Below are positions 5,782-8,522 of a stretch of DNA of 64,000 nt, one piece after another (positions within the stretch are counted from its first letter, which is position 1; every line of letters starts with the position of its first letter). The notes under the pieces are model-generated. The model did no database searches. It was not told the DNA's origin and saw only the letters and a program-made list of their open reading frames with translations. A program made the position numbers and the translations under genes. The DNA is from an uncultured Paracoccaceae bacterium (GTDB lineage Bacteria > Pseudomonadota > Alphaproteobacteria > Rhodobacterales > Rhodobacteraceae), in contig CAKZTM010000030.1 in assembly GCA_937920555.1 (NCBI GenBank), positions 1-64,000 on the forward strand, written 5' to 3'.

Positions 5782-7350
5782 TCAGTAACCCAGCGCACAG
5801 CCATCTTTACGTGGATCTGAACCGCCAACCAAAACCTCGTCATCTATCCGAATGGCCTGAGCACCGCCAATTGCAGTATCTGGGATGCGCACGTTGTGGC
5901 CAAGATTAGCCAGCTCCTGACGTACAGCGTACGAATAACCACGCTCTACATCCAAAAACCCATCTTGTGGGAAGGAACGCGGCGCATCTATCGCCTCCTG
6001 AGGGTCCATACCAAAATCAGCAATGTTTGATATAAATCGGGCGTGGCCAGCAGCTTGATATTGTCCACCCATAACCCCAAACGGCATTATCAGTTTACCA
6101 TCCCGCTTCAGCATGCCGGGTATGATCGTGTGCATTGGTCGCTTACCACCACCAGCTTCATTGGGATGCCCTTCCTGTAGTGAGAAGCCCGCAGCCCGGT
6201 TTTGAAATAACACGCCAAATTTCTCTGACGCAATCCGAGAGCCAAAGGAGTGAAAAACTGAATAGATCAAGGATACCGCCATCCGATCCTTGTCCACCAC
6301 TGTGATATAGATGGTCTCTTTGTGAACTGCCTCCGACAACTCTTTCGGGGACACCATAGCTTGGGTTGGGTCAATCAATTCGGCTAACTCGGAAGCCGTA
6401 ACTGGCGACATCATGTGCTCTAATCGTGGCGTATGTTCAGAAATAAACCGGTTACGGGCATCGTAAGCCAGCTTGGCTGCTTCCGCCTCAAGATGCACAC
6501 GTTGCGCACCATTTGGATCCATGGAAGCGATATCAAAACTAGATAAGAGGTTTGCCATCAAAACGGCTGCCGCTCCTTGCCCGTTTGGCGGTAACTCAAC
6601 AAGCTCTAAATCCCGATAAGTGCCCGAAATAGGCTCGACATAATCGCATTTGGTAGAAGCGAAGTCATCCAAAGTATGAGAGCCTCCGGCAGCTTTGAGC
6701 GAATTGACCATATCCTCAGCGACTTCGCCCTCGTAAAATCCAGAACGGCCTTGGGCCACAATTCGGCGCAACACTTCTGCTTGGCCGGGCGCACGATATA
6801 TATCACCAACCTTTGGTGGCTTACCGCTAAGAAGATTGTATTTTGCCGCAGCCCCCTTCAGCTCAGATGCAACCTCTGCCCAATCTGATGCGACGCGTGG
6901 AGCCACCGGCACACCCTCTTCTGCATAGTGGATGGCAGGCGCTAGTAACTCCGACATTTCTTTGCTGCCGTGATCACCCGCCAATGTGAGCATCGCATCG
7001 ATTGCGCCGGGTACCGATACCGCATTCGCGTCGTAGACGGGCATCTCGTAGTGGCCCGCAGCTCTTAAAGTAGCCGCGTCTAATGCGGCAGGCGCTCTGC
7101 CGGATCCGTTCAGACCCACGATATCTTCTGATCCAGCAAGCTTAACCAGAAAGAAGCAATCGCCACCAATTCCAGTCATTTGAGGTTCGCAAATACCCAA
7201 AACAAGTGCGGCCGCAATTGCCGAATCAACCGCATTACCTCCCGAGGTCAACATATCTACGGCAACTTTTGCCGCGAGCGGGTGCGATGTCGCACACATG
7301 CCATTTCGCGCAATAACGCTTGAACGGCCAGGAAAATGGAAATCGCGCAT
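5782..7350 (-). CDS. ggt: Gamma-glutamyltransferase family protein
   Basis: This is an Ntn-hydrolase that is made as one chain and cleaves itself to give a small subunit starting at a Thr nucleophile. The candidate is T346 in KETIYITVVDKD, the equivalent of the usual TTHxxVVD site. PFGVMGGQYQAAGH at about 423-436 and the N-terminal GGNAVDSAIAAAL and TGIGGDCF motifs are typical. No signal peptide is visible, unlike the periplasmic E. coli enzyme, so this one is probably cytoplasmic. It may act on glutathione or other gamma-glutamyl compounds; some relatives are acylases. Confidence 0.85.
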   Translation of the reverse strand: MRDFHFPGRSSVIARNGMCATSHPLAAKVAVDMLTSGGNAVDSAIAAALVLGICEPQMTGIGGDCFFLVKLAGSEDIVGLNGSGRAPAALDAATLRAAGHYEMPVYDANAVSVPGAIDAMLTLAGDHGSKEMSELLAPAIHYAEEGVPVAPRVASDWAEVASELKGAAAKYNLLSGKPPKVGDIYRAPGQAEVLRRIVAQGRSGFYEGEVAEDMVNSLKAAGGSHTLDDFASTKCDYVEPISGTYRDLELVELPPNGQGAAAVLMANLLSSFDIASMDPNGAQRVHLEAEAAKLAYDARNRFISEHTPRLEHMMSPVTASELAELIDPTQAMVSPKELSEAVHKETIYITVVDKDRMAVSLIYSVFHSFGSRIASEKFGVLFQNRAAGFSLQEGHPNEAGGGKRPMHTIIPGMLKRDGKLIMPFGVMGGQYQAAGHARFISNIADFGMDPQEAIDAPRSFPQDGFLDVERGYSYAVRQELANLGHNVRIPDTAIGGAQAIRIDDEVLVGGSDPRKDGCALGY

Positions 7351-7428
7351 CTATGTCCTCCAGTGAAGTCGACCCAGACCTTAGCGATTGAACGCGGAAT
7401 TAAAAGCGGCGACTTCAGAGGGGGGGCG

Positions 7429-7557
7429 AAGGAAGACTGCCCGGCGTCATGTTGGGGTGGGGGCTGAAACACACGACACCGAGCCAGCTCTTCGCTACAG
7501 GGATAGGTATGATCAAGATTCGCGGCGAGCTTTGGACCGAAATATGGCCATAACGTG
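7429..7557 (-). repeat. Repeat A: candidate small RNA with C-rich loop plus conserved upstream part
   Basis: This unit recurs 210 bases away as repeat B. On the minus strand the core (7499-7429) starts TGTAGCGAAGAGCTGG. It then folds as GCTCGGTGTC pairing with GACGCCGGGC over 10 pairs, two of them U-G. The loop contains GCCCCCAC. Read on the plus strand, the same U-G pairs become C-A mismatches, which points to a minus-strand RNA. The part at 7500-7557, upstream on that strand, is also shared with B and may hold the promoter, though I cannot place clear -35 and -10 boxes. No open reading frame of note overlaps it. Confidence 0.5.
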
Positions 7558-7637
7558 ATATCGGGATGCCCATGAATCGGAACCTAACAATGGGTTAATA
7601 AACCAATTTGGAGGTGCAGAGAGCATTTTGGGGACCT

Positions 7638-7769
7638 GAAGGAAGACTGCCCGGCGTCATGATGGGGTGGGGGCTGAAACACACGACACCGAGCCAGCTC
7701 TTCGCTACAGGAATATGTATGATCAGGATTCGCGGCGAGCTTTTGGCCCGAATGTGTTCACAACGTGAT
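7638..7769 (-). repeat. Repeat B: near-identical second copy
   Basis: Second copy of repeat A. The core at 7709-7639 differs from A at one loop position. The shared segment then continues at lower identity to about 7769. The stem and the GCCCCCAC loop are unchanged. The spacer between A and B (7558-7637) is unrelated except for a short inverted repeat, GGTTAATAAACC, near 7594. Confidence 0.5.
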
Positions 7770-7827
7770 TTCTACAACTGGGAAAGAACCCGCATGATCA
7801 AATCAATTGTAATATATGGAACCCCAT

Positions 7828-7890
7828 GAAGACCGCTCGGTGCCGAAAGTGGGGGCTTTTTGACGACACCGAGCCAGCTCTTCGCTACAC
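7828..7890 (-). repeat. Repeat C: divergent third copy with preserved hairpin
   Basis: The first 26 bases on the minus strand (7889-7864) are identical to A and B. The distal arm has changed. GCTCGGTGTCG (7874-7864) now pairs with CGGCACCGAGC (7845-7835), 11 pairs with one U-G. Compared with A/B, three pairs have switched between U-A and U-G and none is lost. The loop keeps GCCCCCAC. This pattern of pairing-neutral change is the main evidence that the unit is a structured RNA. Confidence 0.5.
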
Positions 7891-7979
7891 ATCTAGTTAT
7901 GCACAGAACAATTCAGCATTACTAGCTGAAAAATAACATGAAAACAGTGTTGTTAACATTTTCACAACAGTTCTTGTTT

Positions 7980-8082
7980 TTGAGAAAAGAAATGCTCAGC
8001 AAGACACAAATCGGTGGGGGCCGCACAAGGTCTTACTGAGCATTGTAGTCCAATCGAGGGTTCCGCGCTTGTGTGTAGCGCG
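7980..8082 (-). ncRNA. Candidate fourth structured RNA or terminator hairpin with the same loop
   Basis: On the minus strand a small hairpin CGCGCT/AGCGCG (8082-8064) is followed by a long one. In the long one, arms 8044-8030 and 8005-7991 form 15 pairs, one of them U-G, which again reads as a C-A mismatch on the plus strand. Its 24-base loop carries GCCCCCAC, as in repeats A-C, although the stem sequence is unrelated. A T-rich stretch (TCTTTTC) follows directly, so it could be a Rho-independent terminator or the 3' end of a small RNA. The remainder of 7351-8180 shows no gene. Confidence 0.4.
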
Positions 8083-8180
8083 TTAGGGTTCTTATGGTCG
8101 AAAAATTCAACACTAACAATGCGTCAATAACTTAATCGTTTTTCTTGCAATAATCCGCCGATGTGGGTCTAATCGAACAC

Positions 8181-8522
8181 ATGTCATCTTATCAAAACAT
8201 AGCTCGCATATCTGTTGTCGACCCTGTCGTGTCACTTCACCGGTTGGAGTTAAATATCATTTTGGATCTTTACGGCCGGATGGTCGCAGCAGGAGAATGG
8301 CGTGACTACGGGATTTCGATGCTGAAGGACGTGGCAGTCTTTTCTATTTTTAGGCGTGCAGCGGAACATCCCATTTACAGAATTGAGAAGCGACCAAAAC
8401 TGAAAGGACGACAAGGCCAATACTGCGTAATCGCCATGGACGGCCATATTTTAAAACGCGGAGACGATCTTGGGTTGGTTTTGCGAGTGCTCGAAAAAAA
8501 GTTAATTCGCGCAATCATCTAA
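8181..8522 (+). CDS. DUF2794 family protein
   Basis: A 113-residue protein conserved in alphaproteobacteria, function unknown. The family core is clear: LHRLELNIILDLYGRMVAAG, then EWRDYGISMLKDVAVFSIFR, YRIEKRPKL, and a C-terminal ILKRGDDLGLVLRVLEKK. An in-frame GTG at 8163 would add six residues; the ATG at 8181 is preferred. It ends in a 4-base convergent overlap with the NlpC/P60 gene. It lies just beyond the small-RNA-like repeats on the opposite strand. Confidence 0.8.
   Translation: MSSYQNIARISVVDPVVSLHRLELNIILDLYGRMVAAGEWRDYGISMLKDVAVFSIFRRAAEHPIYRIEKRPKLKGRQGQYCVIAMDGHILKRGDDLGLVLRVLEKKLIRAII

Follow-up and report, generated by a model that had tools for sequence, protein, structure and literature searches.

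CcsR1-4 of Rhodobacter sphaeroides and the cuckoo/alpha-r14 small RNAs (sRNAs) carry a C-rich CCUCCUCCC motif in hairpin loops. Like the RNAs analyzed here, they are alphaproteobacterial, comprise several homologous sRNAs and expose a C-rich motif in their loops, but the loop here is GCCCCCAC and not CCUCCUCCC. In addition, CcsR1-4 are co-transcribed with ccaF1 (RSP_6037), whereas the neighbors identified here are the gamma-glutamyltransferase (GGT) gene, the DUF2794 gene or STAS/HATPase genes; and CcsR1-4 mature from one precursor, according to the available text of the source (PMC8307010), whereas the copies here carry a phased upstream element of their own. The alpha-R8/MmgR/SisA-D RNAs of Caulobacter and Sinorhizobium are also siblings at more than one locus with one short C-rich single-stranded core as seed. 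In the accessible part of their description, however, this core, UUUCCUCCCU, follows a weak hairpin and is not in its loop, and the sibling promoters are reported to lack a common motif, whereas both loci here share one upstream architecture (PMC12559287). UUUCCUCCCU was absent from the consensus of our 116 copies. OmrA/OmrB of Escherichia coli, as summarized in the same text, are likewise tandem siblings within a single intergenic region; they are controlled by an OmpR-family response regulator, the activator class predicted here, and have a conserved pairing site in common, but this site is at the 5' end and not in a hairpin loop, and sequence and host are unrelated (PMC12559287). Finally, StsR (RSs0827) of R. 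sphaeroides, a 72-nt RNA that is reported to be driven by RpoHI/RpoHII and to bind UpsM, the mraZ leader RNA (PMC8307010, available text), comes from the same bacterial family and by its description shares a length of about 70 nt; the reported RpoH dependence and UpsM binding would set it apart.

In this study, we performed a computational analysis of a window of 64,000 nucleotides, the whole stretch of DNA under consideration (contig CAKZTM010000030.1 of assembly GCA_937920555.1, an uncultured Paracoccaceae bacterium), and of related genomes. The original prediction had described a three-copy family of minus-strand RNA hairpins at 7429-7890, with a shared 5' block, a stem of 10-11 pairs and GCCCCCAC in all loops. 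All three hairpins are present, share the block and the stem, and hold the loop motif. Copy A (minus strand, 7429-7499; loop GCCCCCAC at 7457-7464) was matched by our covariance model at 7434-7498 with 59.0 bits (E = 2.3e-13), and its predicted product is an RNA of about 70 nt with a short 5' stem-loop followed by a main hairpin of 13 bp. Copy B (minus strand, 7639-7709; loop GCCCCCAC at 7667-7674) was matched at 7644-7708 with 60.1 bits (E = 1.2e-13), and the diverged copy C (minus strand, 7830-7889; loop GCCCCCAC at 7849-7856) at 7830-7888 with 40.7 bits (E = 2.8e-8). A and B belong to a 135-nt repeat of 90% identity, and a 44-nt block is common to all three copies, its starts being spaced by 210 and 180 nt. 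The 24-nt core ACACCGAGCCAGCTCTTCGCTACA occurs exactly three times in the window and not at all in shuffles, and copy B used as a query against its own genome (assembly 83% complete) matched only A, B and C.

The family of three turned out to be a set of four, since a further minus-strand hairpin, D (8044-7991), has the loop GGCCCCCACC, which contains GCCCCCAC at 8014-8021. D is an inverted repeat with a stem of 15-16 bp that folds far better than its shuffles (z -7.3). The sequence of this stem is unrelated to the stems of A-C, and the covariance model gave no match at D. All four loops fall in a stretch of about 560 nt of the intergenic region that separates the GGT gene (5782-7350, minus strand; Pfam G_glu_transpept, E = 3.8e-124), the usual downstream neighbor of the hairpins that we call type I (here A-C), from the divergent DUF2794 gene (8163-8522, plus strand; Pfam DUF2794, E = 7.1e-38), which D adjoins and by which it is classed as type II. 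GCCCCCAC occurs six times in the window vs 2.5 expected, and four of the six are inside hairpins A-D. When extra CCCCCAC hairpins near model matches were sought, at least 11 pairs were formed at 1 of 17 sites, namely D with 16 pairs, compared with 3 of 28 control-motif sites (11-12 pairs). Between D and C, a terminator-like hairpin on the minus strand (7912-7930) is possibly the end of the D transcript; with one site vs 0.8 expected in shuffles, it is weak by itself. Directly upstream of D, the minus strand carries the inverted repeat GCGCT-ACACAC-AAGCGC (8064-8100), which may correspond to the 5' stem-loop (TAGCG...CGCTA) of other type II RNAs.

The minus-strand folds of A, B and C were better than those of shuffles (z -4.5, -4.4 and -3.2), whereas on the plus strand A and B were no better than shuffles (-0.2 and -0.4) and C only weakly so (-1.9). 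The expected 10-11 pairs apply to C, whose minimum-energy fold has 11 pairs in the main helix, but underestimate A and B with 13-14. The three U-A/U-G swaps between A/B and C that had been noted as keeping the pairing are present, together with a fourth difference, G-U to G-C, by which pairing is also kept.

A first BLAST pass over one genome per genus of the same family matched 285 of 394 genomes at E ≤ 1; most matches were weak and many surely due to chance, and the recurring one spanned the upper stem and the loop. A seed alignment of 23 sequences was then assembled from 20 copies at 17 loci read by eye, some of them beside DUF2794, together with A, B and C. The covariance model built from these copies, the homologue search that had been proposed with the original prediction, matched 308 of 394 genomes of the Rhodobacteraceae at E ≤ 0.01, each genus being represented by one genome, and 276 of the 347 genomes of good quality. 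In a class sample of 385 genomes, whose listing leaves out 360 rows with no match, the model matched four of the five family members listed and gave one weak match elsewhere (E = 0.006). The RNA is near-restricted to Rhodobacteraceae in the genomes sampled, and its copy number differs from genome to genome. Rfam 15 gave no match in the window at the curated score, in agreement with the earlier impression of an unrecognized family, and at a relaxed threshold the region 7380-8150 gave only a chance-level SNORD43 (15 bits, cutoff 45).

In the 23-sequence alignment, 98.3% of the cells of the 13-pair stem can pair, and 8 of the 13 pairs have been changed on both sides, compared with 3.9 in shuffles. 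When the 3' arm was shifted by 1-3 columns, pairing fell to 31-53%. Stem changes in homologues that disrupt pairing as frequently as they preserve it, which had been named in advance as evidence against the prediction, did not occur. Larger-scale statistics were derived from 116 copies at 100 sources, these loci being drawn from the better-scoring matches and not a random sample. The copies are the 120 matches minus the last four, which were three antisense shadows and one weak degenerate copy. The latter (locus L118, 2323-2393; 26.8 bits) is a second copy of very high GC content whose loop has an expanded run of C, possibly a decaying tandem duplicate. The loop sequence CCCCCA was invariant in 116 of 116 copies and each of the next three C was conserved at 99%, which bears out the earlier statement that this loop differs from the CCUCCUCCC type of Rhodobacter. 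A conserved unpaired C-rich loop on a structured RNA was therefore found, as in trans-acting sRNAs with C-rich loops. Among 1506 stem cells, 129 were G·U on the predicted strand and one was C·A; as C·A is what a G·U pair looks like on the opposite strand, this bias points to an RNA read from one strand. Additionally, 114 of 116 copies allow a 5' stem with four or more pairs, whereas shuffles yield a mean of 56, and the usual sequence of this stem-loop is AGCU...GGCU or AGCU...AGCU. On this comparative evidence the predicted minus-strand small-RNA gene family gains support, and A-C may be labeled putative small RNA genes.

The hairpin preceded a co-oriented GGT gene in 88 of the 100 model-matched loci, at a median distance of 84 nt from the start codon (range 49 to 280 nt). 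GGT was absent from the stretch fetched in 11 of the 100 loci, so it is not required; the one further GGT match was oppositely oriented. On the opposite side of the hairpin, a STAS-domain gene was found in 88 and a HATPase gene in 87 of the 100 loci, both co-oriented; the R. sphaeroides proteins used as queries matched Pfam STAS (E = 4.1e-19) and HATPase_c_2 (E = 1.1e-19). These two genes, which resemble an anti-sigma/anti-anti-sigma pair, are directly upstream of most GGT-side copies and are absent in the window. In R. sphaeroides they lie at L065, 1558-2437, and they might tie the small RNA to partner-switching. The conserved neighborhood also includes a YccV-like gene near the hairpin in 61 and an SLT-domain gene in 28 of the 100 loci, and both are found near GGT in the window. 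Tandem head-to-tail copies, spaced 178-266 nt, occurred in 13 of the 100 loci, and the remaining 87 had a single copy. The 100 sources include one DUF2794 locus, L151; because of it and of the seed copies adjoining DUF2794, the covariance-model matches are not all type I. A terminator was detected within 120 nt of 3 of the 116 copies, and at least five T within the first 9 nt past the stem in 23 of 116. In the absence of a clear type I terminator, processing of the RNA or read-through into GGT is possible.

The second locus emerged from a search for the loop complement. In 20 genomes, TGGGTGGGGGC had 93 sites compared with 33 for the reversed control; 29 of these were hairpins of the family itself, and the other 64 still amounted to about twice the control, an excess that may be due to composition. 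No shared gene was noticed by eye at the leftover sites of the 20 genomes. Among the 71 sites beyond the 22 at model matches, 10 had a significant hairpin (p < 0.01), seven of which belonged to the family: one type I copy (L250) and six same-loop hairpins beside DUF2794, L237 among them. The three others (L205, L212, and L213), which overlap with long open reading frames, were excluded. The mraZ leaders of 18 genera showed no conserved G-rich complement to the loop, and the UpsM/dcw leader was accordingly rejected as a target on the basis of these 18 MraZ loci. The duplex with the mraZ leader was computed for R. sphaeroides alone and without a shuffle control, and it is not specific.

DUF2794 loci were examined in 68 genera, 61 from model-positive and seven from model-negative genomes. 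On the divergent side, 34 of the 68 had a significant hairpin whose loop contained the motif or one of its near variants (loose motif set), of which the calls for L285, L309, L316, L318, and L320 rest on motif variants. With strict GCCCCCAC, the sense strand gave a hairpin in 29 of 68 genera and the antisense strand in 1 of 68, and eight reordered 8-mers used as controls gave 0-1 of 68 each. In other alphaproteobacterial families, where 28 of the 57 outside genomes with DUF2794 were tested, the strict motif gave 0 of 28 and the loose set 2 of 28 (L409 and L416). In the other 34 of the 68 loci, R. sphaeroides included, no significant type II hairpin was found; among all 68, L291 is below the cut (p = 0.025) yet was found by the covariance model (E = 0.0012). 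At E ≤ 0.01 this model matched 31 of the 68 DUF2794 loci, and the best scores ranged between 21 and 67 bits. Five of the seven model-negative genera had a type II hairpin, three of seven by the strict motif. Altogether 66 of 68 genera had a model match or a type II hairpin, which is not a prevalence since the 68 genera were hand-picked.

The type II stems are strongly diverged, many with residual similarity. The 5' arms of the 29 strict copies had a median best match of 9/14 compared with 8 in shuffles, and 16.7% of the arm pairs shared at least 11/14 compared with 0.5% in shuffles; six of the 29 stems, including D of the window, resembled no other at that level. A terminator followed the hairpin in 12 of 34 type II loci, compared with one in shuffled flanks, and none was detected in 22 of 34. 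At locus L293, two model matches stand in tandem beside DUF2794 (980-1051 and 1216-1287; 59.1 and 57.9 bits), which indicates that the type II locus also undergoes tandem duplication.

Upstream of the copies, information is highest at C residues, which stand at -59, -48, -37, and -26 relative to the G of GTAGC. The stretches separating the conserved C are rich in A/T, as is a -10-like element near -12 to -8. At lag 11 the autocorrelation of C content reached its maximum (0.63), and lag 22 gave a second one (0.38); a period of 11 is not a multiple of three and argues against coding constraint, although in R. sphaeroides the open reading frame upstream reaches the 5' end of the hairpin. A profile was built from 97 upstream regions. 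In the window, the predicted activator-type promoter of copy A (7500-7565, minus strand) consists of 11-bp-phased GCC/AT-rich repeats and had an in-register score of 13.4 against the profile, and the predicted promoter of copy B (7710-7775, minus strand) has the same architecture in a weaker form (5.6). C (-15.1) and D (region p = 0.055) are without the phased element, which they have perhaps lost by drift. Additional copies in tandem arrays, A and B of the window among them, also carry the element. Tested against shuffles, the profile fitted 24 of 34 type II regions with p ≤ 0.01 and 29 of 34 with p ≤ 0.05, and the antisense strand scored at least equally in 3 of 34. Element and loop were 45-53 nt apart in the 116 model-matched copies, and 24 of 34 type II loci had a spacing of 44-58 nt. 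The same profile and spacing at both loci suggest that they are probably controlled by one regulator. A version of the promoter written as a pattern was too insensitive for a regulon search, matching 5-14 of the 116 known upstream regions at ≤ 2 mismatches.

Direct repeats with a period of about 11 bp are thus found upstream of a -10-like element, the arrangement expected for regulators of the OmpR/PhoB type; phasing alone does not prove binding by a protein of this class, which is a candidate judged from sequence. Direct repeats spaced by a helical turn are typical of OmpR-family response regulators, as described for CenR, whose motif is the direct repeat TGA-N8-TGA (PMC9275681, available text). 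CenR itself was rejected as the regulator, as the upstream consensus shows, by inspection, phased CC/AA repeats without TGA.

One genome encodes a PuhA with full identity to that of R. sphaeroides across 260 residues, and we take this genome as very probably that species. It has one copy upstream of GGT, a 68-nt model match with 38.6 bits (E = 1.0e-6) and the variant loop GUCCCCCAC / GUCCCCCACCCGG; no type II copy was detected at its DUF2794 locus. A second model match in this genome (E = 0.147) reads like coding sequence and was discarded, and a search for the ChrR family, as a route to rpoE, gave no match there. At the GGT-side copy (L065, 1558-1568), the upstream HATPase open reading frame enters the first stem-loop and has its stop codon in that loop.

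Our analyses demonstrated a strand-specific conserved RNA structure with a near-invariant loop, two fixed loci and a common phased upstream element. The loop hardly varies although the stems diverge, and both loci have one upstream architecture; these features, together with the terminators after a third of the type II copies and the near-restriction to one family, point to a trans-acting RNA with the loop as contact. We therefore consider A-D to be probable genes for co-regulated trans-acting small regulatory RNAs whose apical loop is the contact site. From the sequence comparisons we infer transcription, the start site, the activator class and base-pairing as the mode of action. Each gene would have its own promoter and produce an RNA of roughly 70-110 nt. 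In type I (A, B, and C), a short 5' stem-loop would be followed by a long hairpin presenting a C-rich loop of about 20 nt; in type II (D), the same loop would be presented on a strongly diverged stem, with a separate Rho-independent terminator predicted in a third of the genera that have it. The stem would mainly hold the loop, of which GCCCCCAC would be the active part, and the likeliest action would be pairing of the loop with G-rich sites (core GUGGGGG) in one or few target RNAs. Such base-pairing with G-rich targets appears the most likely contact by analogy with Sis (PMC12559287) and CcsR (PMC8307010), as far as the accessible texts describe them. Tandem copies and the second locus might raise the dose or add inputs, and one OmpR/PhoB-like activator would probably switch on transcription via helically phased direct repeats at about -65 to -20. 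GsrN and the S. aureus UCCC-loop sRNAs, as well as RegA/PrrA, CtrA, and ChvI sites, were also considered.

The main rival holds that the C-rich loop titrates or recruits an RNA-binding protein, in the manner of the sponge-type RNAs CsrB and CrcZ, with copy number setting the capacity. A near-invariant short loop on strongly diverging stems would suit protein recognition well, as would the tandem head-to-tail copies in 13 of 100 loci and the fact that no conserved complementary target was found in the mraZ leaders or at TGGGTGGGGGC sites; but each RNA has one loop and not many motifs, 87 of 100 loci have one copy, and there is no protein candidate, so that we regard a protein decoy as unlikely. 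Much less room is left for a cis-acting leader of the GGT mRNA (attenuator- or riboswitch-like) in place of a free small RNA. The co-orientation with GGT in 88 of 100 loci close before its start codon, and a type I RNA without a clear terminator of its own, are what such a leader would look like, whereas the 11 loci that keep the hairpin with no GGT in the stretch fetched, the distance to GGT varying from 49 to 280 nt, the upstream element carried by further tandem copies, and the recurrence of the loop beside DUF2794, where 12 of 34 hairpins are followed by a terminator of their own, all make it improbable.

Identity with StsR or another named Rhodobacter sRNA has a similarly small chance. 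The 72 nt given for StsR (PMC8307010, available text) come near the 68-nt model match in the genome taken for R. sphaeroides, but the UpsM binding reported there contrasts with leaders in which no conserved complement was seen, and the reported RpoHI/RpoHII control with an upstream element that looks different in kind. Mobile or selfish palindromic repeats of the REP/RAYT kind, without RNA function, have hardly any probability: these too are short palindromes in tandem whose copy number varies among genomes, but the chromosomal loci here are fixed, the bacterium's own genome (83% complete) showed three matches at this locus and no dispersal, and both the one-strand G·U bias of 129 to 1 and the conserved upstream element count against this reading. 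Within the preferred reading of trans-acting RNAs, a fuller picture would be a Rhodobacteraceae core regulon of two co-regulated sRNA loci, with the 8-nt loop GCCCCCAC under near-complete purifying selection, stems kept mainly for pairing and rewritten from genus to genus at DUF2794, one uncharacterized activator acting on 11-bp-phased repeats, and a single conserved partner; for this combination we would put the chances at about even.

Rhodobacteraceae are mostly marine and include the roseobacters, which are abundant in the sea, as well as the model phototroph R. sphaeroides. If the family is a small RNA, its presence in 308 of 394 genera and its absence from Rfam would make it a missing part of core regulation in these bacteria. 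As the stems have diverged around one loop, the active nucleotides are indicated and the function can be tested by a few loop mutations; furthermore, the common phased upstream element offers a direct route to the regulator. In the open-access PMC literature, which leaves most subscription papers outside it, we found no description of this RNA family. The sRNA lists of Ruegeria pomeroyi (PMC4809877) and Paracoccus denitrificans (PMC5107571) give sizes, targets and some coordinates but no sequences in their available text, and some members have therefore possibly been seen already as unnamed transcripts. A pattern scan of named genomes found at least 80 records; the titles listed were mainly those of Roseovarius, Sulfitobacter, Salipiger, Pseudooceanicola, Rhodovulum and further Rhodobacteraceae, or of relatives without a name. 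Roseovarius nubinhibens is among the carriers of the type I pattern. This pattern was also present, in typical form, in JAFKDC010000008.1, a record titled Enemella evansiae TN21-6, in which the organism name is probably wrong.
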